This document shows, piece after piece, positions 3,319-64,000 of a DNA stretch of 64,000 nucleotides (positions are counted from its first letter, which is position 1; every line of letters begins with the position of its first letter). Made by a program: the position numbers and the translations under genes. Below the pieces are notes generated by a model that searched no databases, had not been told where the DNA came from, and saw only the letters and a list, made by a program, of their open reading frames with translations. The stretch comes from Rhizobium rosettiformans (lineage in GTDB: Bacteria; Pseudomonadota; Alphaproteobacteria; Rhizobiales; Rhizobiaceae): positions 1-64,000 of the forward strand of contig NZ_CP032407.1 of NCBI RefSeq assembly GCF_016806065.1, read 5' to 3'.

Positions 3319-3377
3319 ATTCCTTCACCTTTCTTCAGGCAAAAGAAATCCGCTCACCAAAACGATGCCAAAGACTC

Positions 3378-3406: not shown

Positions 3407-3412
3407 CATTCT

Positions 3413-3473: not shown

Positions 3474-3478
3474 GCCGA

Positions 3479-4459: not shown

Positions 4460-4511
4460 CTTGTTATCCTCGGACCGTTAAGCGGTTGATTCGATGAAGA
4501 AACTTCTGGAT

Positions 4512-4527
4512 TTTGACGGCGGTCAAC
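4512..4527. promoter_or_regulatory. parS-like centromere site in the repA-repB gap
   Basis: TTTGACGGCGGTCAAC fits the repABC parS consensus GTTNNCNGCNGNNAAC at every fixed position except the first base. The repA-repB gap is one of the usual places for such sites. Confidence 0.65.
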
Positions 4528-4530
4528 ACG

Positions 4531-5736
4531 TTACATTCTCCCCCATGCTCGATGGATAAGCCCCTGAATTTCGAAATTCACGGCATCCATACACTCGATG
4601 GCGCGGTCGTAAGTCCCCCGGGTAAAGTTAGATCGTTCTAACTCGTAAAGACTCCGCTTGGTCAATCCGGCGTCAGAGATCGCAGTCGTCTTTACCATCG
4701 GCGTCTTCAAAATTTCCTCGGCGAGCATTGATTGCATGAAGCCAAGCATTTGAACTTGAGGCACGTCTTGCGGCTCAAAACGGGTGATCAGGTAGCGTAG
4801 CCAGTCGAGCCTTACGTCAGCACCAGCCGCCTTGATGGTCTTCGTGATGTTGCCGAGCATCAGCAAAAACTGGCTCATGGACATCAAATCCAGCATTTGT
4901 GGGTGGACGGTAATCAGAACCGATGTTGAGGCGGTGAGGGCAGTCAACGACAGATATCCTAGCTGCGGCGGACAATCGATGACCACAACATCGTAACGAT
5001 CATCGACGTCCATGAGGGCCTTGCCAAGTCGAGTGAAAAACCGCTTGCCCTCGCTGCCGGCCTGCATCGCGAGCGGGGTATCGTATTCGTACTCCTGCAG
5101 CTCGAGATTCGCCGGGATGATGTCGAGGCCAGGGAAATTGGTTGGTAAGATCACATCCGCAATCGGCTTCCGCTCGTCGTATCGGATCGTATCGTAGAGC
5201 GACGGGTTTTGATCGAGTTCGGGCTGAAAGCCATGCAAAGCCGAAAGCGAAGCCTGTGGATCGAGGTCGATGGCAAGAACTCGATGGCCCGTAAGCGCAA
5301 GATGCTGGGCTAGGTGGGCAGCAGTCGTCGTTTTGCCGCTACCGCCCTTGAAGTTCACGACGGCAATGACCTGAAGCTTGTCGCCCGGCTTGCGCTGTGG
5401 GAGGTATCTCTTGGCTTCGCTCTTCCCCGTTTCCGCGAGGTACTGCCGCAGCTCCAACATCTGCTCAGCTGTGTAGTACTTCCTATTCCCCGACATTGTG
5501 GTTGGGACCGGTCCCTTACCGTCTAAATAAAGCCGTTTCAGATTGCTTGGCGTAACGCCGAGGTAGTGGGCAACCTCACCCACAGAAAACTGCCGCAAGG
5601 TTTTCTTCGCGCTCGGCGGGAAATTCTCCAGCCGCAGCTGGTTAAGCCTGCGAGAGATTTCGGCACCTTGCATCAGTATCTTGTCGTCCAATTCGAACGA
5701 AGGAAGTGAGAACGCGTTCATAGAGTCGTTGACCAT
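4531..5736 (-). CDS. repA: Plasmid partitioning ATPase RepA (ParA family)
   Basis: RepA is the Walker-type partition ATPase and, with RepB, the autorepressor of the repABC promoter. The 401-residue product has an N-terminal MerR/HTH-like DNA-binding part (SVGEVAHYLGVTPSNLKRLY, about residues 51-70), the deviant Walker A motif KGGSGKTT at 130-137, AIDLDPQASLS, and VVVIDCPPQLGYLS. Length and domain order are normal for RepA. It is first in the operon, and the upstream 250 nt are AT-rich with a second parS-like site at 5898. Confidence 0.96.
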   Translation of the reverse strand: MVNDSMNAFSLPSFELDDKILMQGAEISRRLNQLRLENFPPSAKKTLRQFSVGEVAHYLGVTPSNLKRLYLDGKGPVPTTMSGNRKYYTAEQMLELRQYLAETGKSEAKRYLPQRKPGDKLQVIAVVNFKGGSGKTTTAAHLAQHLALTGHRVLAIDLDPQASLSALHGFQPELDQNPSLYDTIRYDERKPIADVILPTNFPGLDIIPANLELQEYEYDTPLAMQAGSEGKRFFTRLGKALMDVDDRYDVVVIDCPPQLGYLSLTALTASTSVLITVHPQMLDLMSMSQFLLMLGNITKTIKAAGADVRLDWLRYLITRFEPQDVPQVQMLGFMQSMLAEEILKTPMVKTTAISDAGLTKRSLYELERSNFTRGTYDRAIECMDAVNFEIQGLIHRAWGRM

Positions 5737-46133: not shown

Positions 46134-47615
46134 TCAGGCGGCGACCACGAATTCGGTCATCATCCCGGTCGAAAGATGTGGCATGTGATGACAATGCAGC
46201 ATCCAGCGCGCCGCCTCACCCGCATCCACGGCGATCGTAGCCATGGTCATAGGTGGAATATAGAGGGTGTCACGCATAGCCCCGCCCATCCTGCGTCCGC
46301 CGATCTCCACCACCTGGAAATGATGGCCATGCAGGTGCATTGGATGTCCCATCATCGACATGTTGTGAAAGCGGATCTCGACGCGGTCCCCGCTGCGCGC
46401 CGAAATCGGCAGATGCTCACCCCAGGTCTTGCCGTCGATCGTCCAGACATAGGGCTGCATCTGCCCGCCTAGCATAACGTCTATTGGACGGATGGCGCCG
46501 CGATCGGCAAGACCGGTCACTGCACGCAGGCGGGATTCCTGTTCCATCCCGATGTCGAACGCGGGCGCGTCGGCTTCGGCAAGGGAATCGATACGGCGAA
46601 CCTGCGCGCCGGGCGTCGCAAGAATCAGTCCCGTCCGTTCACGAGCCCCTTCACGAAGGGCCAGGACGGGCCAGGCACCGGTGTCTGGCAATTCAAGCTC
46701 CAGATCCAAACGCTGCCCCATCGAAAGGCCGAACCGATTGCCAGGTATGGGCTCGATCGGCTGACCGTCGACAGCGACGAGCCGGCCCGGCAGATCGCCG
46801 CTATCGATCCAGAAGCTCGTCGCGGCGGCCCCATTGATCACTCGCAGCAACACCCGTCCGTTCGCTTCGACCGGAACCGTATCCGGATCGTCCAGGGTGC
46901 GGTCATTGGCCAGATATGCGTCGAAATCAAAATCGTTCAGATCCATCTGCATGGAATCCATCCCACGCATCCCAGCCATATCGTGCCCGCCCTGACCCGC
47001 ACTCGGCATGGAGCCGTGGCCGCCATGATCCATGCCGGACATGGCATTGGCTTCGCCCATATCCCCGTGCCCTGCACCAGAAACGATCTCGGCGAGCACC
47101 TCTTCGGCCGGGCGGAAGCTGAAGTCATGTAAGAACATCACCACCTCCTGCCGGTCGGCCGCGATCTCTTCAGGACGCCGGACAACAAGAGGGGCCGCCA
47201 GCATCTGCATTTCTTGAATGGGAATGTGACTGTGCATCCAGTGCGTACCTGCCGACGGTGCGAAGTCATAACTGCGAACCTCGCCCGGCTTTAACGCAGC
47301 CAGGGGCGCGTCGGGTACGCCATCCTGCACGTTGGGCGGGATCTGCCCGTGCCAGTGAATGATCGTCTCGACATCCAGATCGTTGGTCAGATCGACCGTG
47401 AAGCGCTCGCCCGGATCGAGCATGACACCGGGTCGTCCGTCTGGGCCGATCAGCCCAAAGACAGACGCGGCCCGTCCGCCAATATCGAGTGTGCGGCGGC
47501 CGGCAGTTAGTTGGATGGGGGTTGCCGATTGTGCGAATGCAAACTGCGGAATATGCGCGTACGCTAGTGTTGCCGCACCTGCGGCAAGGAAGCCACGTCG
47601 TGAGAAATTTATCAT
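46134..47615 (-). CDS. Tat-exported multicopper oxidase (CueO/CopA-like)
   Basis: This periplasmic laccase-like enzyme oxidises Cu(I) or organic substrates with oxygen. The 493-residue product has a twin-arginine signal (SRRGFLAAGAATLAYAH), the four copper segments IIHWHGQIPP, GTHWMHSHIP, HPMHLHGHHFQV and HCHHMPHLSTGM, and a Met/His-rich insert (DHGGHGSMPSAGQGGHDMAG ... MDSMQM) of the kind that binds Cu(I). The Met ligand of the T1 site is present in the last motif. It forms an operon with the downstream cytochrome c gene. Length is normal. Confidence 0.95.
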   Translation of the reverse strand: MINFSRRGFLAAGAATLAYAHIPQFAFAQSATPIQLTAGRRTLDIGGRAASVFGLIGPDGRPGVMLDPGERFTVDLTNDLDVETIIHWHGQIPPNVQDGVPDAPLAALKPGEVRSYDFAPSAGTHWMHSHIPIQEMQMLAAPLVVRRPEEIAADRQEVVMFLHDFSFRPAEEVLAEIVSGAGHGDMGEANAMSGMDHGGHGSMPSAGQGGHDMAGMRGMDSMQMDLNDFDFDAYLANDRTLDDPDTVPVEANGRVLLRVINGAAATSFWIDSGDLPGRLVAVDGQPIEPIPGNRFGLSMGQRLDLELELPDTGAWPVLALREGARERTGLILATPGAQVRRIDSLAEADAPAFDIGMEQESRLRAVTGLADRGAIRPIDVMLGGQMQPYVWTIDGKTWGEHLPISARSGDRVEIRFHNMSMMGHPMHLHGHHFQVVEIGGRRMGGAMRDTLYIPPMTMATIAVDAGEAARWMLHCHHMPHLSTGMMTEFVVAA

Positions 47616-47684
47616 GATTATCTCCTCGGAACGTCTCGTCCCGTTTATCTGATCTAAGGTTGTCGTGGGCTCAAGCCCACGCGA

Positions 47685-48053
47685 TCAAAGGAGACGAAGC
47701 TTGGGAGGGCGGAGATTAACGCCAGGATTATGGCTCAATACTGCCGGTATAATAGTAGGACCATAATCTTCCCTAGCGTGGAAGACGCTGGCACCCCCAC
47801 GTTCCGGGATGACAAAGTTGAGTAGCCCTGTGCAGACAGCTGCACACATGGCGGCGCTCTGCGATGCGCAGTCCTGCTCCATTTCGCAGGACTGCGCATC
47901 GTATTCGGCAACCATGGCGGTGACGTGATACATCTGGACGCCATCAGCCGTGCTGGAATTCATGCGCACCATGTGGCCCGCGTTCGCCGTCGAGGCTACG
48001 GCGAACGCGAACACTACAAACAGTGCAAAGAAGCGACCAATCATTCCGCACAT
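47685..48053 (-). CDS. Small secreted Cys-rich protein near the copper oxidase
   Basis: The product has a signal peptide (GRFFALFVVFAFAVASTANAGH) and cysteines in SCEMEQDCASQSAAMCAAVC, and a tail RPPKLRLL. It resembles the proteins at 20949 and 25654 in size, Cys spacing and the C-terminal RPP motif, as expected of DUF2946-type proteins. I use the ATG at 48053; ATGs at 48044 and 48122 are in frame. It is 70 nt upstream of the oxidase gene on the same strand. Copper handling in the periplasm is a reasonable guess. Confidence 0.55.
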   Translation of the reverse strand: MCGMIGRFFALFVVFAFAVASTANAGHMVRMNSSTADGVQMYHVTAMVAEYDAQSCEMEQDCASQSAAMCAAVCTGLLNFVIPERGGASVFHAREDYGPTIIPAVLSHNPGVNLRPPKLRLL

Positions 48054-48229
48054 ATCACATTGTTGCACCCGACGTTCAAGCAGTCGAACCACCAAGGTGC
48101 CGAAAATCATTGCTAGAAACACCGAGAAAATTCGATGCTATCAAGAGTTCGACGAGGAAGGTCGCACTCAAACCCGCTTATGTCGGACGTGGCGCCGCCT
48201 AGCGGCGGGTCCGTCGCTGACCGACATCG

Positions 48230-48427
48230 TCAACGGTGCTGAGTAGCCGGATATCCTGCTTTTGCGAGTGCGGCCTCAAAGGCCTCACGAGACTGCTCGG
48301 ACATGACCACTATCTTCCTGCTCGATAGGTCAGGAGTGACCTTGGCGACGGGGTCGACGGATTGAATCGCCTTGGTGACGCTGCGGACACAACCGCCGCA
48401 GGACATATTCTGGATATCAAATTGCAT
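48230..48427 (-). CDS. copZ: Copper chaperone CopZ
   Basis: The 65-residue HMA protein [20 protein letters not shown] carries the metal site MSCGGC and the betaalphabeta fold sequence ([16 protein letters not shown], [14 protein letters not shown] end). It delivers Cu(I) to CopA or CueR. I use the ATG at 48427, since ACAGGAG precedes it by 5 nt; the ATG at 48451 would lie at or before the inferred start of transcription. It is divergent from copA and has its own CueR-type promoter. A broken paralogue is at 17207-17400. Confidence 0.92.
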
Positions 48428-48458
48428 GGGAATCTCCTGTTCATCGCTCATGCCATTT

Positions 48459-48489
48459 CAGATAAGGCTTCCCACCGTTGGAAGGTCAA
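48459..48489 (-). promoter_or_regulatory. CueR-type promoter of copZ
   Basis: On the minus strand TTGACC (48484-48489) and TATCTG (48459-48464) are 19 nt apart. The over-long spacer holds the dyad TTCC...GGGAAG (CCTTCCAACGGTGGGAAGCC). This is the MerR-family arrangement in which the activator distorts the DNA to align the -35 and -10. Confidence 0.85.
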
Positions 48490-48512
48490 GTCCCAATGCC
48501 AATAAATTGCTA

Positions 48513-48543
48513 TTGACCTTCCCATCGTTGGAAGCCCTATCTT
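48513..48543 (+). promoter_or_regulatory. CueR-type promoter of copA
   Basis: TTGACC (48513-48518) and TATCTT (48538-48543) are 19 nt apart on the plus strand, with the dyad CCTTCC-N7-GGAAG between them. It is nearly identical to the copZ promoter but inverted, with a 23-nt gap between the two -35 boxes. Confidence 0.87.
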
Positions 48544-48581
48544 GCGCTACGAATGCCGAAATTCGTACGCAAGGAGCCGCA

Positions 48582-51146
48582 ATGAACGCCCCGCTTAAAG
48601 ATCATGCAGTTTCATTCGAACCAGTAACACTTCGCATTGAGGGCATGAGTTGTGCCTCATGTGTGGGCCGCATTGAGAATGCGCTGAAGGCCGTACCGGG
48701 TGTCGCGGACGCCAGCGTTAACTTGGCAACAGAGATGGCCGATATTTCGTTCACTGCTCCCGTCGAGCACGGCGCCCTCGTGTCCGCGGTTGAGGATGCG
48801 GGGTATTCGGTTCCCGCAACCCACACCGAGGTCATCATTGAGGGCATGACCTGCGCGTCATGCGTGGGGCGCGTCGAAAGCGCGCTCAATGCGGTTCCAG
48901 GCGTCACGCAAGCGACAGTCAACCTCGCCACGGAGCGCGCGAGCCTGCAGGGAAATGCCACCGCTGCCGATCTTATAAAGGCAGTCGAAAGGGCGGGTTA
49001 TACGGCCCGAGTGGTCGATGGCGGTTCACAGCAACAGGACGAGGACGCCGCCCGTAAGGATCGCGAGCAGGCAGAGTTGCAGCGCGCCGTCCTTACTGCG
49101 GCGGTGCTGACGCTTCCGGTATTCGTATTGGAGATGGGCTCGCATCTCCTCCCGGGCATGCACGACCTCATCATGCGCACGATCGGAATGCAGTGGAGCT
49201 GGTACCTTCAGTTTGCGCTTACGACGGCCGTGCTTTTCGGCCCCGGCATCCGTTTCTACAAAAAAGGCTTTCCCGCGTTGGGGAGGTTTGCGCCCGACAT
49301 GAATTCGCTGGTGGCGGTCGGCACCATTGCGGCCTACGCTTATTCCATGGTCGCGACCTTCGCGCCCTCGCTTCTACCGGCGGGCACGATCAACGTCTAC
49401 TACGAGGCGGCGGCTGTAATCGTAACTCTCATTCTGCTCGGTCGCTATATGGAGGCACGCGCCAAAGGCCGCACGTCGGAAGCCATCAAGCGGCTTGTCG
49501 GCCTGCAAGCCAGGACCGCCCGCGTGCGCCGCGACGGCAAGACGGTCGAGATCGCCATCGGCGAGGTTGAGCCGGGTGATGTGGTCGAGGTGCGCCCGGG
49601 AGAACGCGTGCCAGTGGACGGCGAGGTGACCGAAGGCGAAAGCTACATCGACGAATCCATGATTACCGGTGAGCCGATTCCGGTGGCCAAGGCGGCCGGT
49701 AGCGCTGTGGTCGGCGGAACGGTCAACCAGAAGGGCGCGCTCGCCTTCCGCGCTACAGCCGTCGGCGGGGCGACGGTGCTTTCCCAGATCATTCGCATGG
49801 TCGAGCAGGCGCAGGGCTCCAAGCTGCCTATCCAGGCGATGGTGGACAAGGTAACCATGTGGTTCGTGCCGGTGGTGATCGGGGTGGCGGTGCTCACCTT
49901 CCTCATCTGGCTCGTCCTCGGGCCGGAGCCGGCGCTGACATTCGCTCTGGTGAATGCCGTCGCCGTGCTCATCATCGCCTGCCCGTGCGCAATGGGGCTC
50001 GCCACTCCTACCTCGATCATGGTGGGTACGGGGCGTGGGGCCGAGATGGGAGTGCTTTTCCGCAAGGGTGAAGCCCTCCAACTCCTCAAGGACGCCAAGG
50101 TTGTCGCAGTCGACAAGACGGGCACGCTCACCGAGGGCAAACCGGCGCTCACCGATCTGGAGATCGCAGGCGAGTTCGAACGCAATGACGTGCTGGCGCA
50201 CGTCGCGGCGGTGGAGGCCAAGTCCGAGCATCCGATCGCCCGTGCCATTGTCGAGGCGGCCGAAGCCGAAGGGCTTGCGCTGCCGGCGATCAGCGGTTTT
50301 GATTCGGTGACCGGTTTCGGCGTCAAGGCCGAGGCGGGGGGGGTGTCCATCGAGATCGGTGCGGACCGCTACATGGAGAAACTCGGTCTCGACGTCTCTG
50401 CCTTCGCTGAAACCGCAGCACGCCTCGGTGACGAGGGCAAGTCCCCCCTCTATGCCGCGATCGGTGGCAAGCTCGCAGCCATCATTGCGGTGGCCGATCC
50501 GATCAAGGAGACGACGCCCGAAGCGATCAGGGCATTGCACGATCTGGGTCTCAAAGTGGCAATGATCACCGGCGATAACCGGCGCACGGCAGAGGCTATC
50601 GCCAGAAAGCTCGGTATCGACAAGGTGGTAGCCGAAGTCTTGCCCGAGGGTAAGGTCGAGACAGTGAAGGCGCTCAAGGCCGAGCATGGCAAGCTCGCCT
50701 TTGTCGGTGACGGTATCAATGACGCCCCGGCGCTCGCTGAGGCCGATGTCGGCATCGCGATCGGCACGGGCACCGATATTGCCATTGAGGCCGCAGACGT
50801 GGTGCTGATGTCGGGAAGCCTGAGAGGCGTGCCGAATGCCATCGCTCTTTCGAAGGGCACGATCCGCAACATCAAGCAGAACTTGTTCTGGGCCTTCGCC
50901 TACAACGCGGCGCTAATCCCGGTGGCTGCCGGGGTGCTCTATCCCGTGTCCGGTGTCCTGCTCTCTCCTGTGCTGGCGGCGGGTGCGATGGCACTTTCGA
51001 GCATCTTCGTGCTCGGCAATGCGCTGCGCCTTAAGCGGTGGAAGCCGCCCATGGTGTCGGCGATCGGCAAGGCGCCCCAATCTGGGCGCCCGACAACATC
51101 GGATACCTCAAGCAATGTGCGCAAAATGCAAAGGGACGCGGCATGA
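48582..51146 (+). CDS. copA: Copper-exporting P1B-type ATPase CopA
   Basis: This Cu(I) efflux pump has two N-terminal HMA domains (GMSCASC twice, about residues 20 and 88), eight membrane helices, the CPC motif in [35 protein letters not shown] and [21 protein letters not shown] use the ATG at 48582 (AAGGAG 6 nt upstream); the long frame to 48372 overlaps copZ. Length about 854 residues is in the normal range. It is coupled to cueR by an ATGA overlap at 51143-51146, and both are induced from the CueR-type promoter. Confidence 0.96.
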
Positions 51147-51574
51147 ACATCGGTGAAGCAGCGCGCGTCTCTGGCGTGAGCGCGAAGATGATACGCTACT
51201 ATGAGCAGAATGGGCTCATCCCGCCGGCTGAGCGAACCGCGTCGGGCTATCGCGACTACTCCACCAATGACGTGCACATGCTTCGCTTCATCCGGCGCGC
51301 GCGCGATCTCGGTTTTTCGGTCGCCGAAATTAACGAGCTTCTGGGATTGTGGCGCGACCGCAGTCGCCAGAGCGTCGACGTCAAGCGTATCGCACTGGCC
51401 CGTATCCGGGATCTACGCCGCAAGATCGAGGAGATGGAGCAAATGGCAGCATCATTGGAGCATCTTGCGGCGTGCTGCTCGGGCGACAATCGACCCGACT
51501 GCCCCATCCTCGCCGATCTAGAAAATCCTGACGATGGCGATCAACCGAAACGGCCGCGTGGCGCGATCAACTAG
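51143..51574 (+). CDS. cueR: Copper-responsive MerR-family regulator CueR
   Basis: The product [39 protein letters not shown] has the MerR HTH, and the C-terminal metal loop [13 protein letters not shown] gives the two cysteines of the Cu(I) site (here [11 protein letters not shown]). It activates the two 19-nt-spacer promoters upstream of copZ and copA. The 143-residue length is normal. It overlaps the copA stop, so copA and cueR form one operon and the regulator is autoinduced. A C-terminal tail ([13 protein letters not shown]) is unconserved. Confidence 0.94.
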
Positions 51575-52811: not shown

Positions 52812-53719
52812 TTCAGCGTTATAATCACAAGCTCGGGCCCGACCTGGTGAAGCCCCCGCCTTGAACGGATACGAACCGCCGACCCCGCCATTCAGTCATT
52901 ATGTTCGCGCCGAAAATTCCTGTGCTGTCAGTTGCTTGCTTTCGAGAATGACCGATATGGGTTCTGAGGCTTTTGCTCCAGTTCCGAAGAGCAAAGGCTT
53001 ATAAATCAGAGTCCTACAGTGCGATCGAAACATGAGTAGCGTTTTGAAACCTGTCCGGCGGAGTCCAGCCGAACCCCTATTCGAGACGACGACGAGGGCA
53101 TGCCGTTGAAGGGCGCTGGAGCGTTTGGCGCATTAATCGATCATGATGTTCATTAAAGAGGGCAGGCCTTCGATCAGAAGGTTTCGAAGCGACTTAAGGG
53201 GCATGCGAAACTTCAGGATGTTCTGACAGAGGAAGATGTCAGAGGAAAATTTCACAAACGACCAGCTCTAGAAGTATCTCTGATCACGCTTGAAGTCTTT
53301 GGCGTCACGGAGGAAATTACAGACGCTTACGCCCCGATGGTATTGCCTTAGTCATACGAGCCAATAATCCATTCGTTTGAAGTGGATCCGCCTGGTGATG
53401 ATTTTCAAGCTCTGTTCCGCCCTTGGGCGGCGGCGGCGATCGATCACCAATGAGTTAGAGGCGATGCACATTCATATGCTGGAACCAAAAGGCAATGACG
53501 TCAAATTCGCCATCTATCCAAACATAAAGAACGGCGCCCGCAGTCTCGGCTACCCGTATTCAGATATGGCAAGAACCGACTTCCCTTTTCGCCTAAAAAG
53601 CGCAGACGGACATGTACCACATGAGGACGCTGACTAAACGGAAAAGCAATGAGCTCGCGCTTATCGGTAGCGGGCCCGCAACCGGCCGGCGCGCAGAACG
53701 CAGTCGACCACCTCTTTTT
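52812..53719. other. Decayed intergenic region
   Basis: No gene is supported. The piece around 53160-53351 reads in one plus-strand frame KVSKRLKGHAKLQDVLTEED then VRGKFHKRPALEVSLITLEV and stops, which looks like the C-terminus of a lost protein I cannot identify. The frame 53377-53637 has no recognised domain. Confidence 0.4.
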
Positions 53720-54748
53720 TCAAACCGATGGGTCGGCGGTCTGTAGATGCTGAGTGAGATTGAACAGAAAAAAATACAGGCCTACAAGACCTTGTTTAGA
53801 CTCGGCCAATGAGACGTCGGTATGCACACCCTTCGAGGCAATGTCATTCAACCTTCTAGCGAACAGCGAGAGCTGATCGAGCTCCTCTCTGAGCAAGTCC
53901 TTCGCCGTCGAGCGGCTTAAGCTCCGAGCGATAAATTCTTGGAGCCTATTCATATATTGTTCCTCACCCAAGGACCGCTCCTTACCATCGGTACAGCGCA
54001 CCAATCCATTCATCGCCGGAAAAAAATGGTCAGCGACAGATTTCAACGAACGCCTGACCTCCGTCAGCAGCAACGATGAATCCTCGCTGTCGCGTGATGC
54101 CACCAACTGTGCTGCCTTTGTCAGCTTGACATAAACTTCATTGGAATGGGCTCGGAAATAATTGTTAACCTCGGTCTGAACCTCAGCTAGGAAGTTCTGC
54201 GGATTTGTCTGCAACTGAAGCTGTCGCTCGACTTGGATGGCGTAATTCAGACACCGTGTTTTGAGGCGGGCTCGAATTGTGTTGAGTGCCGTTATGCGTA
54301 GACGTATCGATGCCTTTTCCTGAGTGTTACGATCCGTGAAAGCAGCGATGTCGAATGGATCCATTCCAGGAGGGAGCATCATGTCGTTTATCGTACGCTC
54401 CCATTGAGAAAGCTCAGCGTCGATCTCGCCCGCGCCGACGCGTAAGACGTTTCTCTCATCTCCATCTTCGTTCTGCCCTAGGCTGAAATCCAAGGTGTGG
54501 ACTTCGAGCCATCGTTCAAGAGAAAACTCATACAGGTACTTGTGAGCCTCTTTAGTCAGATGGGCCGCGTCGTCGAAGATCACGCGGGCAACCTCATGCT
54601 TATTCGGATTGAGCTCGCGCAGAAAGATTGCAGACGATGGATAGTCGTTTAGGTGACGAGCCAAACGCAGGCATCCCATCACTGCCTTTTCGACATTATC
54701 GTCTTCGAGGTGATCAAAAATTCGTTCGATGATCGGAGCGTAGTCCAT
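53720..54748 (-). CDS. AbiTii-like hypothetical protein in a defence context
   Basis: The 342-residue product has an N-terminal segment similar to the AbiTii fold (AVMGCLRLARHLNDYPSSAIFLRELN), a middle helical part (NYAIQVERQLQLQTNPQNFLAEVQTEVNNYF), and SVADHFFPAMNG, which resembles a conserved motif of phage-defence Abi-like proteins. I do not have a firm family assignment. It is on the same strand and downstream of the STAND-NTPase operon, separated from it by an IS256-family element. Before that insertion it may have been cotranscribed. No membrane helix or signal is seen. Confidence 0.55.
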   Translation of the reverse strand: MDYAPIIERIFDHLEDDNVEKAVMGCLRLARHLNDYPSSAIFLRELNPNKHEVARVIFDDAAHLTKEAHKYLYEFSLERWLEVHTLDFSLGQNEDGDERNVLRVGAGEIDAELSQWERTINDMMLPPGMDPFDIAAFTDRNTQEKASIRLRITALNTIRARLKTRCLNYAIQVERQLQLQTNPQNFLAEVQTEVNNYFRAHSNEVYVKLTKAAQLVASRDSEDSSLLLTEVRRSLKSVADHFFPAMNGLVRCTDGKERSLGEEQYMNRLQEFIARSLSRSTAKDLLREELDQLSLFARRLNDIASKGVHTDVSLAESKQGLVGLYFFLFNLTQHLQTADPSV

Positions 54749-54971
54749 TGTGGTTTTTTCCTCGCTGGAATGGAAAGTGATCAGTCTCTGTTTCTTGGCC
54801 AGGAATATTGCGTAGCTGGGTCCGGTTTCGGAACACCGAATGCAACGACGTAATCATTCGCGGGATGTCGCAGCGTGCATGCCGATCCAAGAGAGATCCA
54901 CGCAGATGGTCCCCTCACGATTTCTATCAGCCAGCATCAAAATCTCCCTTTGTACGGGGAGGTTTGATGCC

Positions 54972-54979
54972 AAAGTTGC
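54972..54979. repeat. Left target duplication of the IS256 element
   Basis: AAAGTTGC at 54972-54979 recurs at 56398-56405, exactly at the two ends of the element. Confidence 0.9.
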
Positions 54980-56397
54980 GATCGTGTCCCGGCGCGTGGT
55001 GTAGCTGGTTGGTAGCGAAGCCGCTCGCGAGCGCGCCCTCCAATGTGCTGTAGGGAGCGGGCGGCGTAGCGGTGGTCACCAGTGTTTTCCGGTAGGGTCG
55101 GGTTGCTTAGAGCCAACCTGAGGGACACCACCGATGACCGACGACATGATGAACCTGCGCTCACTCGTTGAGAAGAGCGCTGATGCAGATTTGCTGCGCG
55201 AGATGATCGGCTTTGCTGCCGAGAAGCTGATGGCGCTGGAAGTGAGTGCGAAGACCGGCGCGGGCTATGGCGAGAAGAACAGCTTCCGACTTGCCCAGCG
55301 CAACGGCTACCGCGATCGAGACTGGGAGACACGAGCAGGAACCGTCGAACTGCGCATTCCCAAGCTTCGCACAGGCAGCTACTTCCCGAGTTTCCTAGAA
55401 CCGCGCCGAATGGCCGAGAAGGCTCTGACGGCAGTCATTCAAGAGGCTTACATCCAAGGCGTTTCGACCCGATCCGTCGATGATCTCGTCAAGGCGATGG
55501 GCATGTCGGGCATCTCCAAGAGCCAGGTATCGCGGCTCTGCGAAGAGATCGATGACAAGGTCAAAGCCTTCCTCGACCGCCCTATCGAGGGCGAGTGGCC
55601 ATATCTCTGGATCGATGCCACCTACCTGAAGGTTCGTCGCGGCGGTCGTATTGTCTCGGTAGCGGTCATCATCGCCGTGGGTGTGAACACTGACGGCCGG
55701 CGCGAGGTGCTCGGCATGGAAATAGGCACATCCGAGGCAGAAGCGATCTGGACCGAGTTCCTACGCAAGCTGACCAGACGGGGCCTGCGCGGCGTCAAGC
55801 TCGTGGTCTCCGATGCACACGAGGGCATCAAGGCAGCCGTATCGAAGGTGCTTTCCGCAACATGGCAGAGGTGCAGGGTTCACTTCATGCGCAATGCCCT
55901 CGCTCATGCGGGCAAGAGCGGACGGCGTGTCGTCTCCGCCTTCATCGCCACGGCCTTTGCCCAGGACACCCCGGAGGCGGCAAGCACCCAATGGCGCAAT
56001 GTCGCCGACCAGATCAGGCCGAAGGTGCCGAAACTCGCCACGCTGATGGATAGCGCCGAGCAGGACGTGCTCGCCTACATGACCTTTCCCAGGCAGCACT
56101 GGGCAAAGCTTCATTCCACAAATCCGATCGAGCGTCTCAACGGCGAGATCAAGCGACGCACAGAAGTCGTCGGCATCTTCCCCAACGACGATGCCATCGT
56201 CAGGCTCGTTGGGGCGCTGCTGCTCGAGCAAAACGACGAGTGGGCCGTTCAGCGATCCCGCTACATGACACTTGAGACCATAGCAGCAATGAGCGATGAT
56301 CCACTTATCAGCCTGCCAGCCGCAAGCTGATCAATTCCCGGCTTTGTCCGGAAGGCACGGCCAGCGCCGGAGCTACACCACGCAGTGGGACACGATC
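54980..56397 (+). mobile_element. IS256-family insertion sequence, complete
   Basis: The ends are inverted: GATCGTGTCCCGGCGCGTGG (54980) and, read inward from the other side, GATCGTGTCCCACTGCGTGG (56397), continuing into TGTAGCT. The unit is 1418 bp with one transposase gene. A perfect 8-bp direct duplication (AAAGTTGC) flanks it, which is usual for IS256. The intact ends and duplication show a recent insertion that has not been followed by deletion. Confidence 0.95.
55134..56330 (+). CDS. IS256-family (mutator-type) transposase
   Basis: The 398-residue protein has the mutator-type core: [29 protein letters not shown], then [27 protein letters not shown] (first D), [14 protein letters not shown] (second D), the CHRH-like [11 protein letters not shown] and the final E in [23 protein letters not shown]. 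Full length is normal (about 400). It is the only gene in the element and should be active. Confidence 0.95.
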
Positions 56398-56630
56398 AAA
56401 GTTGCTGACCCAGGGTATCGTTACAGCCGAAAAATGGCCGACGATTGATCGGAATCGTGGCCGGCTTCAGCACGGAATCCACACTCAGACCGTGGATCCA
56501 CCTACAAAGGAGAAATTCGATGCCACTCGAATGAACAATTGACAAAAATCGTGAAGTGAAAGGGTCCGAACCAGCGACCCAGCTTAGAGAAATGATTTCA
56601 TAGTAAAGCGCACGGATTGGCGCAGTTTTA
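56398..56630. other. Right flank of the IS256 element, uncertain coding
   Basis: The frame 56396-56755 on the minus strand (ending GCNDTLGQQL) would continue through the IS site as WHQTSPYKGRF and stop at 54937 if the IS is removed. It has no recognised domain. It may be the end of the neighbouring coding region in a shifted frame. Confidence 0.4.
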
Positions 56631-58034
56631 TCATGTGCCACAAGGGAGGTTAGCCTTTTCTTCAGGCTTCCAGCATTGATCAAGGTAAGCACAGGCTTGG
56701 CAGCAAACGCGAGAGTCGACTGCATGAACTTGGCATCTTTTTTCGCGGCGATCAAGAACGACCTGATTCGCGCAATGATGAGGTTGACCGTCGGGGAAGA
56801 AACACTGCGGAGAAACTGAGGGCATCGAGACTGGGCCTCTTACTGCCCTGTGAGGATGGAGACTGCTCCAGCAGTGGAACTGGCAGGCCGCAATACGAGG
56901 TTCAGGCAAAATAAAATGATGGTCCGCGCCGGTTGCCGCAAGCCACTCTCCACCGCCCGGGAAAGGGCGCACCAATTCTCGTCCCAGCCTGTCAACCTTA
57001 AACCCTGGAAAATTCGAAAGGCTATCGATTTTAAGCTTCCCTGAAAGTTCATGACTACATTGGGCAATCAAGCCATCGATTGCATTCCCGATTTCATCGA
57101 TATGCCCTTCTATTCGAGGCTTTCCTTCATCATCGTATCCATCTGAGAGCACAAAAGAGGATTCCCCGTTTGTTACGCTGATGACGGCGCCATCCTTTCG
57201 CGCGATATGAAGCGCAGGAAAGACTCTCAACTTAGGCTGAACGCCATAGATCTTGCTTCCTTCCTTCTCGACAACTATGTGCACGCCTCGGTAGACGCCA
57301 CGCACATCATCAACCGCAATATAATTCGATAATTGCGCCGGCCGAAGCGGGATCGGTGCGTCGGCGGTAACTTTTGACCTGTGCAGCAATTCGAAAATTC
57401 GCGGCGCTTTCGCGAAAAAGTCTGCTCGCAGAATGAAGACTATGTCTTTTTCAACCGGATTTCCCAAGAATGTCGCAACTGGATTCAGGAAAATGGCCAT
57501 CCATTCGCCGCTGATGAGTACTGCTCGCGGCAATTCATGGGCGTAGCTCTCCTTAAGGACCTGCACATAGCCAGCCACTTGGCGTAGATAACCGTCCCAC
57601 GCCTTGTTGATCGGGCAGTCCTTTTCTTGCCCCTGGTCTTTAATGTGATTGAGGCCCTTCACTATCATTGAAACCGGTTCGGATGCCTCAGAAGGATTCC
57701 TCGCAGTTATGGCCGGTACGTCCCACGCCTTGGCCTCCACCAGTAAATGAGCCTTGTTACTGAGCGCACTTACACCGAGATAATCCATAAACCTGGTCGT
57801 CTCGCCCTTTAGGCGCACCTCTTCACGCACATTCCCGTCGATGCCGCGGTCCCAACCAAGGAGTGCCAGCAATTCATCAATGAACAGTAGACGCGTGTCG
57901 TGCTCATGCGGAACCCGGTTAGGATCCAGATCACTAAATGTGTCTCGGTCCTGCTTCTCGAGTTCCAGATCCACCCGCACGAGTAAAGCCCTAAGGCCAA
58001 GCTCAAAGTCATTTGCATCACTCCAAGGATTCAC
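56631..58034 (-). CDS. PD-(D/E)XK nuclease-like protein in a defence operon
   Basis: The product starts MNPWSDANDFELGLRALLVRV and has a restriction-endonuclease-like core: FIDELLALLGWDRG, D84 in RFMDYLGVSAL and E100-A-K102 in HLLVEAKAWDVP, the D...ExK triad. A second conserved half (about residues 230-370) has no known name. The ATG overlaps the upstream 1620-codon gene by 4 nt, so they are coupled. After about residue 371 (near 56905-56922, an A-run) the frame stops looking natural; a one-base shift gives FCLNLVLRPASSTAGAVSI and a stop at 56840. A frameshift is likely. Confidence 0.7.
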   Translation of the reverse strand: MNPWSDANDFELGLRALLVRVDLELEKQDRDTFSDLDPNRVPHEHDTRLLFIDELLALLGWDRGIDGNVREEVRLKGETTRFMDYLGVSALSNKAHLLVEAKAWDVPAITARNPSEASEPVSMIVKGLNHIKDQGQEKDCPINKAWDGYLRQVAGYVQVLKESYAHELPRAVLISGEWMAIFLNPVATFLGNPVEKDIVFILRADFFAKAPRIFELLHRSKVTADAPIPLRPAQLSNYIAVDDVRGVYRGVHIVVEKEGSKIYGVQPKLRVFPALHIARKDGAVISVTNGESSFVLSDGYDDEGKPRIEGHIDEIGNAIDGLIAQCSHELSGKLKIDSLSNFPGFKVDRLGRELVRPFPGGGEWLAATGADHHFILPEPRIAACQFHCWSSLHPHRAVRGPVSMPSVSPQCFFPDGQPHHCANQVVLDRREKRCQVHAVDSRVCCQACAYLDQCWKPEEKANLPCGT

Positions 58035-61000
58035 TGGAGCAACTCCGGCAACCGATACATCAGCCTGCGCGCCTGCGGCCAGCCAGCCTGCAGAAATATC
58101 TCAAGGCATTCGATAAGCTCGCCACGACGCTCCGGGCGACCTGTGAAAAGCACTTTATAGTCGGCAAGAAAGACGCCGAGCATGCGCACAACCAGTCCGG
58201 CCCCCAGCGACTCGAACTGATATCCAAACGTCTTCCCGGACCGCAGCAGATCCACCATCATCGCAAAGGCGGCCTCGGGCACGGCGGGAGCCAGTTTTTC
58301 AACAAGCTGCAAGAGGTGATAAATGGTATGCGGATCGGCATTCCCGCCAATGTCCCTAATCAATTGGGAATATTCACGCTCGAAAGCGCGCAGAAGCGGC
58401 TCGCTGCCCGGATCCTTGTCCGCTTTTTCCTTGGTCACACTGTTCAGCGCGAAATAAAGCTGGCTGCCGGCGGTATCGAGCAGCTGAAAGCAGTTCCTCT
58501 TGACCTCTATGGATTGGTCATCCGCTTCCCGCCCTGCCAACTGCTCCTGTGCCGCCCTGACGACAGTTTCGAATATCCGCTTCGTGCGCAAGCGTATGTC
58601 GTGTTCGTCCGCTCCGACCCCGCTAATTCCAGAAATGAGAGCTGGGCGAAGCGAAAAAAGGACTGCCTTTATAACTTCGCCATGCTCCCATGGTCTGGTC
58701 AGCCATCTGTCGAGCAGTTTCCGGACATCCTCCCGAGCGTACCGAACCCAGAGGATCGTCAGCAGAGGCACGATGCCAACCAGAAGGCGCTGCTCCCGCT
58801 CGCTCCCGGGCGCTTCTCGCTCCGCGAGGTAACTGAGCAGTGCCAATGAACGGTCTTGGTCGCTATGCACCATTGCTGTGCCCAAGTGGCCCAGGACGTG
58901 CGTGATAACGGCAATATTAGTTTCAATCTCCAGTCGATCGCGCATGATTGACCAGAATTTTTCCTGGTCGACCGACCAAATGCTTCGGACGCGCAGTAAG
59001 GCATTCATCCGGACTGCGGGATGCGGGTCCGCAGTCAGCTTCTCAGCGGCTCCGATAAGCCTGGGATAGAGATCCGGTCGCTGGAGAAACAAGTCCCATA
59101 TCGCATCTGCGGCTTCAACCCGGGCTGCGGGCGAGCCCCAGGATGACGAAGTCTCAAAATTGGATTCCGTATCAGGATGAACTTCTGGATTGTCAGACCT
59201 GCTAGCAATGTCGAGCAGGGATACGAAAGTCTCGTCATCCTCCGTTGACACTGGCTCACTGCCAGACCCAAGAAGACGGCGCGAGACGAGCTCGGCGCAG
59301 CCTTGCCCGACGAGACCTTCCGCGGATCGCTTCAGTGAAGAATTGACGGCGGGATCTGTGAGGCTGGATCTAAGTGTGTCCAGCAGCTGAAGCCAGCCCT
59401 CCAGCCCAAGCTCCGGAGAACTGCCAGCTTCACCGCTCTTGCGCAACCGGACCCTGACCGCATTGATCGCCGCCATTAAAGACGTGTTTTGCTCGACGTC
59501 CCGATCGAGGTCAGGGATGTGGTCAAAATCTCCAAACTCGTGGCTACGAACCGTGATCTTGTAACGTCGGTCGTTGTCAGAGACAGGCTCAACCTGGTTT
59601 TCATCCAGAAACTGCCTTGCCTCATCGTTGACCAAATCTTCCCGACCAATGCGACCAAATAAGCGCAGGAGAAAATTCCGCCGGGCCGCGCTCGGCTTGA
59701 CATATTGGTCGAAGTTGAACGCCAGTGCAGACTGTTCAAGCGTCTGGCGTTCAGTCTCCGAGCGCAACGAGATCCCGGCCACTACCGCATCGATGGCATC
59801 CTTCTGGGTGTCGGAAAGCAAAAGAAAAATCTCGCTCGTGGCGAAGGGCCAAACGGCAGACAGTAAGTCTCCTTTGCGCTCAGCAGCGCAAAGAAAAATG
59901 CGAGACCAAATAACCGCCCAGCTTGCCGACCCGACAAGGCATTCGAATAGCAGTGTAGCGTTTGACTCGGACGTGGTCAGCAGATGCTTCCGGAATTGCC
60001 AGATCAGTTTTTCCGCGCCTTCATGCCTCTCTTCGTCGGGATTACTTGCCCAGATGTAGCTGTAATCTTCGCGTACCCTGATTGTTCGCCCGCCAATCAC
60101 GGCAGTCTTGTCTGTCCGATCGCTATCCCGATGTCCTTTCCTTAAGACATGTCCATCGACAGCGCTGACCAGAGCGGAAACCGCCTCGCGGGGATGTCTC
60201 TCAAGAAATTTCGGAAAGTATTCGCCCAGCGACCAGTGGGCCATTTGATAGTCTTGTCGTGCAGAAGAGATCAGCGGCAAGATTCGGCTGTTGCCAAGAC
60301 TGGTTTTGTGATCGTCGACGACCTCGTGCCCGAACACGATGCGATAGATTTCAGCCGCAAATTCGGGATCGGCATTGCCGATCTTTTCGATCTTGTAGCA
60401 GACAGCAGGAACTTCAACATGGCCAAGCCGAGCCAGACGATCTTCGGCGAACAGCCGCGTTAGTAGCCCTCGCGAAGCAGTCGAGTTGGTCTCGAAGGTG
60501 TCAATCACGAATTCGAGGCTCCACCGGACTGCGTCATCGTCAGCCTGTTCGAATCCGAATTTTAGCAACTGTCTCGCGGCCTCACCGAGAGCGAGCCGCA
60601 GCCTGTCTTCCTTGACCTCCTTCAGGAGATTATCCAGCAATCTGGCCACGGATCGCCACACATCAGCAGGACGCTCTGCCAGATGGCGCGCCAGACGCAC
60701 CCATGGCTCGATTGGCACTTCCCCCACATCTTCAATCCGGATCGCAAGCGCTCCGACAATCTGCGAGAGCCCGTTCGCTGCTGATGCGCCACTTTCGGCC
60801 GAAACCCGGCCCAGCGCACCGCAATCCTCTGGATCTTCAGGGAGTTCGGCAGCCAGCCTGCTGGCCATGATGCGAATGACGGGATCCGCCTCCGTATCGC
60901 AGACCAGCGTCCATATGGCAGACCAGAAAGCGGACCGGTTTGTGTCATCCTCCCAAATCTCGTGTAGAATGAAACCTACGGCTGGTGCGATCACGAGCCC

Positions 61001-62893
61001 TAGGGCGTCGCCTTTCCGAAAGCCAATCGTTCCGGCCTTGATCGCCTCGTAGTCGAGGTACAAACGGGCAGTCGCATAGTCGAACAACAGATGATGCCGG
61101 AATTGTATCCAGCGTTTCCGGCTGTCCTCAATGAGCACCCCCTCTTTGCAAAGTCCTTGAAGAACCAGTGGATGATCGGAAGCAGCCGAGGCGAATGGCA
61201 CCCGGAGCGTCCGTTCTCTGATCATCGCGCCGACGATGTTCGTTAGGCAGGCCCGCGCCTCGAACCCGAGAGATTCGACCCGGCGCTCCCAGTACAACTT
61301 AAGAAGCTCTGACTGCGATTGGACGGACCTCAGGGTCTCCGTATGGCCTTGCAAGAGCAGTTCGCTGACCATACGGGTATTGAAAGGAACGCTGACAAGG
61401 TCCCGGAGCCTTTCACCAGCACCGTCGAGACAGACCTTTAGCTGAGGAGAACCCGCAAGCAGCTGGGCGAACTCCGACTCCTGCCAGGCTGGAACAACCA
61501 AATGTCGCACCCGCGCAAATTCAGGATCTGAAAGATCCGTATCAGGCGGCGAGCCCTTGAACAGCTCCCTGTATTGATGCCCCATTCGAAGATCGAAACT
61601 TCGAATAGAGGCGACAACCGTCCATCTTCCCTTGAGCTCAAGCACGCGTTCGATCAACAACCTGAAGACGCTCTCGCCAGGACTTCCGCGCGTGGCATCT
61701 AATGCATCGATCATGAGATAGGCGGGACCAACCCCATCCCAGGCTTCAAGCACATCTAAAAGCGGGTGCTCCAAACCGAGTTCCGCCTGCAAGTCTCCAA
61801 GCGTCGCGATGGAATATCGGTCGATAGCGAGTTCCAGGACGTCGGCGCGCTGTTTCAAAAGTGACTTTGCAACGAGGCTCATCACGCCGCTTTTGCCGGC
61901 GCCGGGTTCTCCGATAATCAGAAGGGGGCCAGTGTGTATCGCCTGTTCGACCGCAAACTGACAATCGCGCGTGATCGTCAGAGACTTTCCACCGGGGACC
62001 TCTATCCTTTCGTAGCGCGTAAGGGCCTCGGATACCTCCTTGGAGTGCTTTTTCAAAACTTCTATGTCGTCAGCAAAACGCCTCGGCGGCGGCAAGTGGA
62101 TCCCGCTACTTGCCAACTGCTGACGCAAGGTGGTGTCGTCCCCCCCACCGCGGTCCTGCATCATCTGCCCACAAATATTTGAGAGCGCGGAGTAAACAGA
62201 AACGGCATCGGTCGTAGCCCCGCAAGCCTTCAAAAGTGACCCGGCGGCAAGGGCATGTCCTTGCCCATCGTCGAAGGTGTAGACGCGTACGAATTTTGCA
62301 AGATCATGCAATAGGGCCGGAGCCATCGGCTCGCTCGTTGTCCTCGTCCAGGCATCTTCGATGAGCGCTTTGAACACATCTATGGCCCGACGCTGCTCAT
62401 CATTAAGCTCCCCGCCTCCAGGCTGCCGCCAAATTGCTAGCGCCTCAGGCAACGCAATGCGCACGCGCTCGGATGCTTGCGGACTGACCGCGAGCACCAA
62501 ACGATCAACTTCGGGATTGAGCGGACGGTTCCAGCGTCTTGAAGCATCGCCGCGCCTGGCTTCGAACCAATGTCGCACGAACTGCCGAACAGTATTGCCA
62601 AGAGCCGAGTTCGGGTTGGGAGAGAGATCAACGCTGGTTTTTGCTTGAATGGCAACGAAGCCTCCGTCACTCGTCTCCATGAGGAGATCATCGACCGGCG
62701 CCTCTGTCTCAAATCTGATCCAGAGGGGCCGCGCAGCGCCCAGATCGAAAGCAGGATCGAAACGATCGCCCGCCAGTATCCAGGATGCAATCAAAGCGCC
62801 AAGCTGCTGCTGGAATCGGATACCCGCAGTCGTGGCAGCGCCTCCGCCGCCAATACGGTCTGAACTCGGGTCGGCCTGCGGTGTATCGGTCAA
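58031..62893 (-). CDS. Large STAND-type NTPase with N-terminal nuclease domain
   Basis: The 1620-residue protein has three parts. Residues about 22-130 resemble a Cap4/DUF4297-type nuclease: GIRFQQQLGALIASWIL, FETEAPVDDLL (E62/E64, D68-D69) and VAIQAKTS (Q83-A-K85). Residues 305-620 are a P-loop NTPase: IIGEPGAGKSG (328-336), YLMIDALDA (392-400), ASIRSFD near 429. The remaining 1000 residues are helical repeats. This resembles Avs-like antiviral STAND ATPases, in which a C-terminal sensor detects a phage protein and the N-terminal effector cuts DNA. The nuclease gene 56631-58034 follows directly, coupled by 4 nt. Confidence 0.7.
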   Translation of the reverse strand: MTDTPQADPSSDRIGGGGAATTAGIRFQQQLGALIASWILAGDRFDPAFDLGAARPLWIRFETEAPVDDLLMETSDGGFVAIQAKTSVDLSPNPNSALGNTVRQFVRHWFEARRGDASRRWNRPLNPEVDRLVLAVSPQASERVRIALPEALAIWRQPGGGELNDEQRRAIDVFKALIEDAWTRTTSEPMAPALLHDLAKFVRVYTFDDGQGHALAAGSLLKACGATTDAVSVYSALSNICGQMMQDRGGGDDTTLRQQLASSGIHLPPPRRFADDIEVLKKHSKEVSEALTRYERIEVPGGKSLTITRDCQFAVEQAIHTGPLLIIGEPGAGKSGVMSLVAKSLLKQRADVLELAIDRYSIATLGDLQAELGLEHPLLDVLEAWDGVGPAYLMIDALDATRGSPGESVFRLLIERVLELKGRWTVVASIRSFDLRMGHQYRELFKGSPPDTDLSDPEFARVRHLVVPAWQESEFAQLLAGSPQLKVCLDGAGERLRDLVSVPFNTRMVSELLLQGHTETLRSVQSQSELLKLYWERRVESLGFEARACLTNIVGAMIRERTLRVPFASAASDHPLVLQGLCKEGVLIEDSRKRWIQFRHHLLFDYATARLYLDYEAIKAGTIGFRKGDALGLVIAPAVGFILHEIWEDDTNRSAFWSAIWTLVCDTEADPVIRIMASRLAAELPEDPEDCGALGRVSAESGASAANGLSQIVGALAIRIEDVGEVPIEPWVRLARHLAERPADVWRSVARLLDNLLKEVKEDRLRLALGEAARQLLKFGFEQADDDAVRWSLEFVIDTFETNSTASRGLLTRLFAEDRLARLGHVEVPAVCYKIEKIGNADPEFAAEIYRIVFGHEVVDDHKTSLGNSRILPLISSARQDYQMAHWSLGEYFPKFLERHPREAVSALVSAVDGHVLRKGHRDSDRTDKTAVIGGRTIRVREDYSYIWASNPDEERHEGAEKLIWQFRKHLLTTSESNATLLFECLVGSASWAVIWSRIFLCAAERKGDLLSAVWPFATSEIFLLLSDTQKDAIDAVVAGISLRSETERQTLEQSALAFNFDQYVKPSAARRNFLLRLFGRIGREDLVNDEARQFLDENQVEPVSDNDRRYKITVRSHEFGDFDHIPDLDRDVEQNTSLMAAINAVRVRLRKSGEAGSSPELGLEGWLQLLDTLRSSLTDPAVNSSLKRSAEGLVGQGCAELVSRRLLGSGSEPVSTEDDETFVSLLDIASRSDNPEVHPDTESNFETSSSWGSPAARVEAADAIWDLFLQRPDLYPRLIGAAEKLTADPHPAVRMNALLRVRSIWSVDQEKFWSIMRDRLEIETNIAVITHVLGHLGTAMVHSDQDRSLALLSYLAEREAPGSEREQRLLVGIVPLLTILWVRYAREDVRKLLDRWLTRPWEHGEVIKAVLFSLRPALISGISGVGADEHDIRLRTKRIFETVVRAAQEQLAGREADDQSIEVKRNCFQLLDTAGSQLYFALNSVTKEKADKDPGSEPLLRAFEREYSQLIRDIGGNADPHTIYHLLQLVEKLAPAVPEAAFAMMVDLLRSGKTFGYQFESLGAGLVVRMLGVFLADYKVLFTGRPERRGELIECLEIFLQAGWPQARRLMYRLPELLQ

Positions 62894-63158
62894 AACGCTA
62901 TCGCCTCAATCGGTCGTTGGATTTTTACCATCCCTCGATTTATCAGCTATGGGTTGCGCCCTCTAGCAGACTCGTTCAAACGGCACTTCAAACCCACATG
63001 AAATCACATAGTAGGTCGTCCGGTGTAATTCGACGTCAACTATTGGATCCAATATGCGGACACCTTTTCGCGCCCTTCTAGATCGAACCGACCACGCTGG
63101 CATCCAACCGCAAGGCCCGATTTAAGCTGATGCGGATTCCTCGTCACACCAACTGATA
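62894..63158. other. Upstream region of the STAND-NTPase operon
   Basis: The minus-strand operon promoter must lie here. No hairpin or operator was recognised, and no gene is supported. Confidence 0.35.
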
Positions 63159-64000
63159 TCAAATCACTCCCCACGCCCGAAACCTCCCCCTGCCCGTCAT
63201 CTCGCGAAGACCGAGCTCCTGCACGATCCGCCGCGCGCCCTGAGGCGTCACCTCAAGTGTCTTCGCCACCATGCCGGCCGAGATCAACGGCCGCGACATG
63301 ACGAGCTCCACGAGCTCCGGCAGCCTCGATGACGTCCGGCGTCCCTCAAGTTTGCGCATCATCATCTGCCGCGCCAGCACCAGGCGATCATGCTCCTTCA
63401 GCCCGGTCTCGGCGGCAATCACCAACGCCCTTGAAATCGCCAGCAACCGCGTCTCGCGATCACGATGCCGGCGCCGATCGACGGGAATAGCCTTGAGCCC
63501 GACATTGATCGCTGCGAGATGGGTGCCGGTGGTGACGCCACCCTCGCGCAGGACCGAGGCGGCCAGGAGCCGACCGAGCCAGGGCGCATGCTGGAGCACG
63601 GCGATCTCATTCCAGGCATCGAGCGCCACGATGGCCTGCAGGACAGGCGGCAGATCCTGGGCGCGCGCCAGTACAGCCCGCCACTCCTCCAGCCGCTCGT
63701 CCTCATCCCAGTCGAGATCGTAGACGAAGGGATCCTTGTCCGGAGCGTTTTTGGCGCGCCCCGGCTTCTTCGCCTCGTCGATCACGGCCCCGGATCGGGC
63801 GAGTACTGCATCGATCGCTGCAAGCGCATCACCCAAACCATCATTGTCAAGATTTTCGGCCTCCCCTACCCCAGCCCCAGTGCCACCCACCTCAACATTG
63901 CCATCAGACACCCCCTCCCCGTCTCCTACTGATGATGCCGCGGGCCACGCCCGCCCGCGCAGCGAGGCGAGGCCGGGGCTTGAGAGCGCCCAACCAGCTG
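63159..64000 (-). CDS. RHE_PE00001-type DUF1612/HTH protein, 5' end outside the window
   Basis: The frame runs past the window edge ([17 protein letters not shown] upstream of the first GTG at 63911), so the 5' end is missing. The C-terminal part is typical of rhizobial RHE_PE00001 proteins: [83 protein letters not shown] and the HTH at [37 protein letters not shown]. Such proteins are frequent on rhizobial plasmids and their function is unknown; the HTH suggests DNA binding. Confidence 0.85.

Follow-up and report, generated by a model that had tools for sequence, protein, structure and literature searches.

A catalogued candidate anti-phage operon of Rhizobium rosettiformans pairing a probable STAND-like ATPase with a predicted PD-(D/E)XK nuclease

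The first 64,000 nucleotides of contig NZ_CP032407.1 of Rhizobium rosettiformans (assembly GCF_016806065.1), referred to here as the window, contain two genes, A and B, that overlap by four base pairs and that together match the two-gene family PDC-M54 of the PADLOC-DB 2.0.0 collection. A encodes a probably STAND-like ATPase with a nuclease motif of its own, and B a second, separate protein predicted to be a PD-(D/E)XK nuclease. The reading favoured here, with a probability of about 0.5, is that the two genes make up one coupled candidate anti-phage system of the PDC-M54 type, carried on a plasmid, in which an Avs/NLR-like STAND sensor with its own nuclease would license B as a second nuclease. 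An earlier note on this DNA had described a STAND-type ATPase with a nuclease domain at its N-terminus, coupled to a PD-(D/E)XK gene; this description is supported, with a nuclease motif in place of the domain, and the family is catalogued as a defence candidate. Its coordinates, the length of A, the P-loop and the second coupled gene are likewise right as judged from the open reading frames (ORFs) and the sequence, with both genes on the minus strand. The same note considered that two nuclease domains in one coupled operon would be an uncommon layout; as a novelty this is not supported, as the same pair is already PADLOC's PDC-M54.

A conserved, catalogued operon

A matches the PDC-M54A model (PDLC04702) with 2026 bits over residues 8-1620, and B matches the PDC-M54B model along its entire length (Table 1). 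PDC denotes a phage or putative defence candidate; such candidates come from guilt-by-embedding and, in the parts of PMC12988326 and PMC12548924 that deal with them, are mostly presented without experimental validation. A search of the open PMC literature brought up no publication that mentions PDC-M54. The A/B layout is therefore a catalogued candidate defence system for which no experiment was found in the literature.

The pair is a real, conserved operon and not a product of chance, as indicated by the full-length PADLOC matches, the number of homologs and the pattern of substitution. Homologs of A at E ≤ 1e-3 number 892 among 8000 candidates scored, and those of B number 74 among 7999. The window is about 96% identical to the locus of Rhizobiales bacterium R1607_A (L001) over positions 56435-63995 and 52860-54979, and the ratio of nonsynonymous to synonymous substitution rates (dN/dS) between the two comes to 0.18 in A and 0.34 in B; the operon is under purifying selection. 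The earlier note had the stop codon of A overlapping an ATG of B. The overlap is real, but the start codon of B is GTG, the earliest start codon of its frame in the window, so that the shared four bases read GTGA. The same GTGA is present at all six A/B junctions checked (the window, L001, L010, L064, L065 and L085), five of which are independent given the near-identity of the window and L001. In L064 and L065 the public annotation also puts the start of B at this GTG, and in L001, L010, L064 and L085 an earlier possible start lies in the frame of B, from which the overlap would be longer. The contig, of 136,910 bp, also encodes homologs of RepA, RepB and RepC, which places the A/B locus on a repABC replicon.

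Domain plan of the two proteins

The nuclease motif, P-loop ATPase, winged-helix-like motif and probable HEAT-type repeats of A make it probably STAND-like. Conservation was followed in 139 A sequences, namely that of the window, the 120 listed of the 892 homologs and those of 18 loci. D68, D69, Q83 and Q104 in the nuclease-like region, G328, G331, G333 and K334 in Walker A, D396 and D399 in Walker B, and H600 in the winged-helix-like stretch are invariant in all 139, and E62 and K85 are each present in 138; the nuclease active site is kept in loci without B too. The arrangement D-D...QxK is the pattern of Cap4-type PD-(D/E)XK nucleases, and LmuA of Lamassu carries a Cap4-type nuclease domain. 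Of the Cap4-like domain named in the earlier note, the motif (D68, D69, Q83, K85) is real and conserved, and the name finds weak backing in profiles. The LmuA model matches the N-terminal regions of 2 of 18 A-family members, with a best E of 1.2e-5, and the A of the window is not among them. Comparison of the A N-terminal domain with six LmuA-type domains by hhalign gives weak matches (E 0.09-0.16), above all 20 shuffled decoys yet at an E of 0.16, and profile comparisons of this domain with HsdR and with B do not rise above 20 shuffled decoys. Motif and profiles together leave the Cap4 label weakly supported. Among relatives, the 1337-1380-residue ORFs of L095-L097 have LmuA-like N-termini and possibly represent another STAND-type family.

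The ATPase region of the A family weakly matches AAA_22 in 18 of 18 members, nSTAND3 in 10 and NACHT in 9 (Pfam, E ≤ 0.1). The best Protein Data Bank (PDB) relative of the N-terminal 660 residues of A is 9n00, which, like 9n01 and 9yix, is a 1523-residue "AAA family ATPase" whose collinear stretches match the A profile with an overall E of 2.2e-14. The NTPase and winged-helix stretches of this match are significant singly (5.5e-7 and 1.1e-4), but the collinear stretch with the nuclease motif is not (5.5 bits, i-E 48), and the length differs from the 1620 residues of A. PDB searches with single sequences, or with the N-terminal domain of A alone, returned no useful match, and a literature search found no paper citing these three codes. 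The C-terminal region matches HEAT-repeat proteins, the best being Integrator subunit 4 (E 3.7e-5), as well as Adaptin_N (E 0.04), consistent with the helical repeats that the earlier note had seen there. This region may act as the sensor.

B is, by its sequence, an HsdR_N-type PD-(D/E)XK nuclease domain followed by a C-terminal Cys/His cluster. In a set of 78 B sequences, from which 6 of 84 had been dropped as shorter than 440 residues, D84, E100, K102, Q152 and Y156 are present in every member, as are C384, H420, C421, C434, C444, C445, C448 and C454, with C465 in 77. An hhalign comparison of the B profile with the N-termini of eight HsdR-like ORFs aligns residues 13-104 of B (probability 96.1%, E 3.5e-9) and puts D84 and E100-A-K102 on the HsdR motif, with a score of 68.3 against at most 20.9 for 20 shuffled decoys. 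Two of these eight ORFs were checked (L003 and L005), and both have HSDR_N and helicase domains above the Pfam cut-offs. Of 30 B proteins, 13 match the Pfam HSDR_N model weakly (best E 0.0056), the B of the window not being among them, and a PDB search with the B profile gave no useful match. The PD-(D/E)XK call of the earlier note thus stands for B, although it had missed the HsdR_N identity, the Cys/His cluster and the fact that related loci have Shedu as a partner (see below). The cluster is a candidate zinc or iron-sulphur site and is kept even in a divergent B of Sphingobium; the idea that the Cys-rich tail is a frameshift artefact was rejected, given its conservation in 78 homologs. That B keeps such a cluster next to a PD-(D/E)XK nuclease calls for an explanation and is open to test.

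The HsdR_N type of B raises the question of whether A and B are a DNA-directed, restriction-like complex, comparable to type I restriction or Hachiman. A would then be an ATPase that senses DNA or DNA ends, B would do the cutting, and no protein ligand would be involved. The partner of A elsewhere, Shedu, also belongs to a PD-(D/E)XK nuclease family, which would suit such a complex, but A has STAND-like features and no helicase family above cut-off, and no methyltransferase gene is seen from the AbiTii-like gene on one side to the DUF1612 gene on the other, so that this explanation is considered unlikely. Searches of A, B and the immediate neighbours examined found no type I helicase, HsdM or HsdS family above cut-off.

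Under the favoured reading of a sensor with two nucleases, the C-terminal repeats of A would recognise a phage-derived ligand, upon which A would bind nucleotide and oligomerise, and its N-terminal nuclease would be switched on. B, whose translation would be coupled to that of A and whose activity A would license, possibly within an A-B complex, would serve as the second effector nuclease, with its C-terminal domain binding metal. Phage and possibly host DNA would then be cut and the infection aborted. The trigger may be a phage protein or may be DNA. That both active sites are conserved speaks for two working enzymes.

Table 1. Positions of the A/B locus, its predicted domains and the replication genes within the window
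Feature	Position	Strand	Details
Gene A	58031..62893	(-)	1620 aa; TTG start; PDC-M54A; from ORF, PADLOC PDLC04702 and alignment
Gene B	56631..58034	(-)	467 aa; PDC-M54B; PADLOC PDLC04706, 529 bits over residues 1-467
A/B overlap GTGA	58031..58034	(-)	TGA, stop of A; GTG, start of B; read from sequence
N-terminal nuclease-like region of A	62189..62851	(-)	A residues 15-235; E62, D68, D69, Q83, K85, Q104; Cap4/LmuA-like D...QxK
Walker A GEPGAGKS (328-335) and Walker B LMIDALD (D396, D399)	61694..61912	(-)	A residues 328-400
Winged-helix-like FRHHLLFDYAT after the NTPase	61070..61102	(-)	A residues 598-608; from conservation and the stretch matching PDB 9n00
C-terminal region of A, probable HEAT/ARM-type repeats, putative sensor	58031..60913	(-)	A residues 661-1620; from profile matches
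HsdR_N-type PD-(D/E)XK core of B (predicted)	57567..57785	(-)	B residues 84-156; D84, E100, K102, Q152xxxY156
C-terminal Cys/His cluster of B, candidate metal or Fe-S site	56634..56885	(-)	B residues 384-467
RepA, RepB and RepC homologs	2164-5709 (given as 5709-2164)	-	same contig as A/B

Partners and distribution of A

The genes beside A were surveyed in 20 intact, full-length A loci with flanks, using ORFs of at least 60 residues, and all eight known partners were recovered. Left out of this set were L072, L081 and L082, in which A is broken or partial, L103, a duplicate of L001, and H9, whose coordinates, identity and score equal those of H8; L080 is a longer stretch of the L010 locus. A B homolog lies directly downstream of A in six loci (the window, L001, L064, L065, L080 and L085). 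In two further loci, on plasmids of Rhizobium leguminosarum CB782 (L067) and Agrobacterium sp. T29 (L068), a Shedu nuclease lies directly upstream of A, with PADLOC SduA scores of 492 and 470 bits. Taken with the longest reading frames, the SduA/A junctions read TAATG and ATGA and are thus overlapping; the public records put the start of A 63 bp further on, but the longer form is favoured because a later start would lose a conserved G-G...A-T...G stretch. The B-bearing A proteins belong to one clade of the A tree (support 0.998, 22 members, nine of them with the partner unexamined or unlabelled), and the two Shedu-bearing proteins are sisters in another, related clade, in which Shedu stands in the place of B. 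As to the concern of the earlier note that the two genes might rarely be found together, the outcome is split: B is present in 6 of the 7 loci examined within the B-type clade, where L012 of genome G644 has no partner, and in 0 of 13 outside it. In addition, at least 25 of the 74 B proteins are on contigs of the same listed size as the contig of a listed A protein (120 of the 892 A proteins being listed).

Shedu and B have no sequence similarity, and the idea that B is a distant Shedu was rejected on this ground. Shedu relatives 60% identical are also carried by plasmids other than those of the 12 A-containing plasmid records, which indicates that Shedu is not bound to A. A search for SduA in 10 genomes returned nothing, but did not recover the known positives either and is no proof of absence. 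A has the look of a sensor platform that unrelated nucleases have joined. It is tentatively suggested that A is a general STAND-type platform that twice gained an overlapping PD-(D/E)XK nuclease gene, from unrelated families and on opposite sides, with the HsdR-like, Cys-cluster-bearing B downstream and Shedu upstream. In that case a single sensor would license two nucleases, both of them required for defence, and the activity of B would perhaps be metal- or Fe-S-dependent. A literature search, which was not exhaustive, found no paper describing a STAND-Shedu pair.

Several results weigh against the reading of A and B as an Avs-like sensor with a licensed second nuclease. Neither B nor SduA was found beside A in 12 of the 20 intact loci, and A may therefore work alone, with B optional. 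No Avs model matches the A of the window at E ≤ 1, and the Avs2 model gives weak matches in 7 of 18 A-family members; the window's A has no DUF4297 match in Pfam, nor was a Cap4 domain confirmed for this protein. A search of phage records and viral contigs found no A (600 pattern stretches in viral contigs yielded no relative by tblastn). Finally, the strong correlation between the distances among A and among B proteins (Mantel r 0.978, 13 pairs, p = 1e-4, with 7 of the 13 pairs matched by equal listed contig size or neighbouring locus tags), which counts in favour of this reading, can also come from shared descent.

The partnerless loci lend themselves to another explanation, in which A is complete alone as sensor and nuclease, and B has an accessory role in direction, limitation or repair. 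It could, for example, be a partner related to HsdR N-termini that binds DNA ends and either confines A to phage DNA or shields the host. Of 9 other genomes with A, 7 showed no B at any position (two of the seven, G526 and G511, being 74-75% complete with a broken or partial A), and for L078, where about 730 bp of contig remain downstream of A, the absence of B rests on this whole-genome search. The active site of A, conserved also where B is missing, points the same way. On the other hand, the catalytic residues of B are kept in 78 of 78 homologs, and B probably matters where it is present, to judge from the conserved overlap and the correlated distances. An accessory role for B is thus possible but doubtful, even if A may suffice alone in some clades.

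The distribution of A is patchy. Among 385 genomes of the class, full-length A and full-length B occur only in the genome of the window; one other carries a piece of A broken by stop codons, and a further seven give weak B-model matches to HsdR-type ORFs of about 1130-1200 residues (two of the seven were checked). Within the genus, 3 of 63 genomes match A at E ≤ 1e-30: that of the window, G1384, which holds the same contig as L001, and G1383, where A has no adjacent B or SduA. Relatives are also found in Bacteroidota and Actinomycetota records of a plasmid collection; of these records one, 11.85 Mb in size, must be a chromosome. Enterobacterial proteins are among the listed A homologs, about which a search of E. 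coli genomes by distant DNA yielded nothing further. That A is phage-borne was rejected, given the lack of matches in phage records or viral contigs.

This distribution bears on the proposal that A is not a defence protein and that the operon serves, as a module, in maintaining the plasmid or repairing DNA. The location on a repABC replicon would be consistent with such a role, and PDC status is a prediction; within what one study reports on them, two further candidates of PADLOC, PDC-M63AB and PDC-S04, were without defence activity (PMC12409345). However, homologs of A are found on other plasmids and on chromosome-size contigs, some are beside other defence-type genes (a NACHT protein and HEPN; Shedu; SngB/BrxC_D-like), and their patchy occurrence also speaks against such a role, which makes the proposal quite improbable.

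Further observations concern individual relatives and the surroundings of the operon. In Nonomuraea (L074:1464-10833), a BrxC_BrxD/SngB-like gene and a 1040-residue ORF are found upstream of an A homolog; at L075:5998-12971, an A homolog without B has an upstream neighbour with an OLD-like TOPRIM domain; and at L072:5902-10795 and L081:124-5000, A homologs are each split into two ORFs. In the window, an IS256-family element (54980-56396, transposase 55134-56330) sits between B, which is intact, and a weakly AbiTii-like gene (53720-54748; PADLOC E 6e-4, Pfam below cut-off). The element is not at the corresponding place in L001, and the AbiTii-like gene is near B there too. Upstream of A, a DUF1612/HTH_13 gene begins at 63159 and runs past the window end at 64000 to C3 64292, followed by a tyrosine recombinase at C3 65196-66443. 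A probable metal-resistance cluster occupies window 46134-51574, with a multicopper oxidase and, recognised by eye, P-type ATPase-like and MerR-like ORFs.

Comparison with known systems

With Cap4/DUF4297 proteins, including LmuA of Lamassu, A has the D...QxK motif in common, and the LmuA model reaches 2 of 18 members of the family; the A of the window itself is not matched, and hhalign similarity is weak, as described above. B resembles the N-terminus of type I restriction HsdR (HSDR_N) over the aligned residues 13-104, but it differs in having no helicase, no adjacent methyltransferase and a C-terminal Cys/His cluster. The apparent tripartite plan of A, with a putative N-terminal effector, a central STAND-type NTPase and C-terminal repeats, may be shared with Avs/AVAST proteins, of which Avs1-4 carry nuclease effectors according to the relevant passage of PMC12931631. 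Unlike these, the A of the window matches no Avs model and has an extra nuclease gene beside it.

Shedu (SduA), described in the section of PMC12137116 that covers it as a PD-(D/E)XK nuclease, is in this respect like B and adjoins A in two related loci, but it is unrelated to B by sequence and sits on the other side of A. Its presence there suggests that a STAND-like sensor can be linked to a Shedu nuclease; if true, this would bear on the control of Shedu-type nucleases and be a further case of a sensor recruiting extra effectors. A and B were also considered as WonAB and rejected, WonAB being an ABC-ATPase pair in the account given in PMC12137116. Avs, Hachiman, Lamassu and DRT systems have gained nuclease-protease pairs on repeated occasions, the nuclease having a metallo-beta-lactamase (MBL) fold and being protease-activated, as stated in the part of PMC12799240 devoted to them; the likeness lies in the recruitment of separate nuclease genes to sensor systems, and the difference in that no protease family matched at the window locus.

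Among the closest known systems is PDC-M54 itself, both of whose models the window pair, with genes overlapping by 4 bp, matches near full length and from whose layout it does not differ. The PADLOC models come without a functional description, and to them are added here a domain reading, the Cys/His cluster of B and the Shedu partner. This domain reading supplies precise mutants with which a candidate for which no experiment was found can be put to the test.

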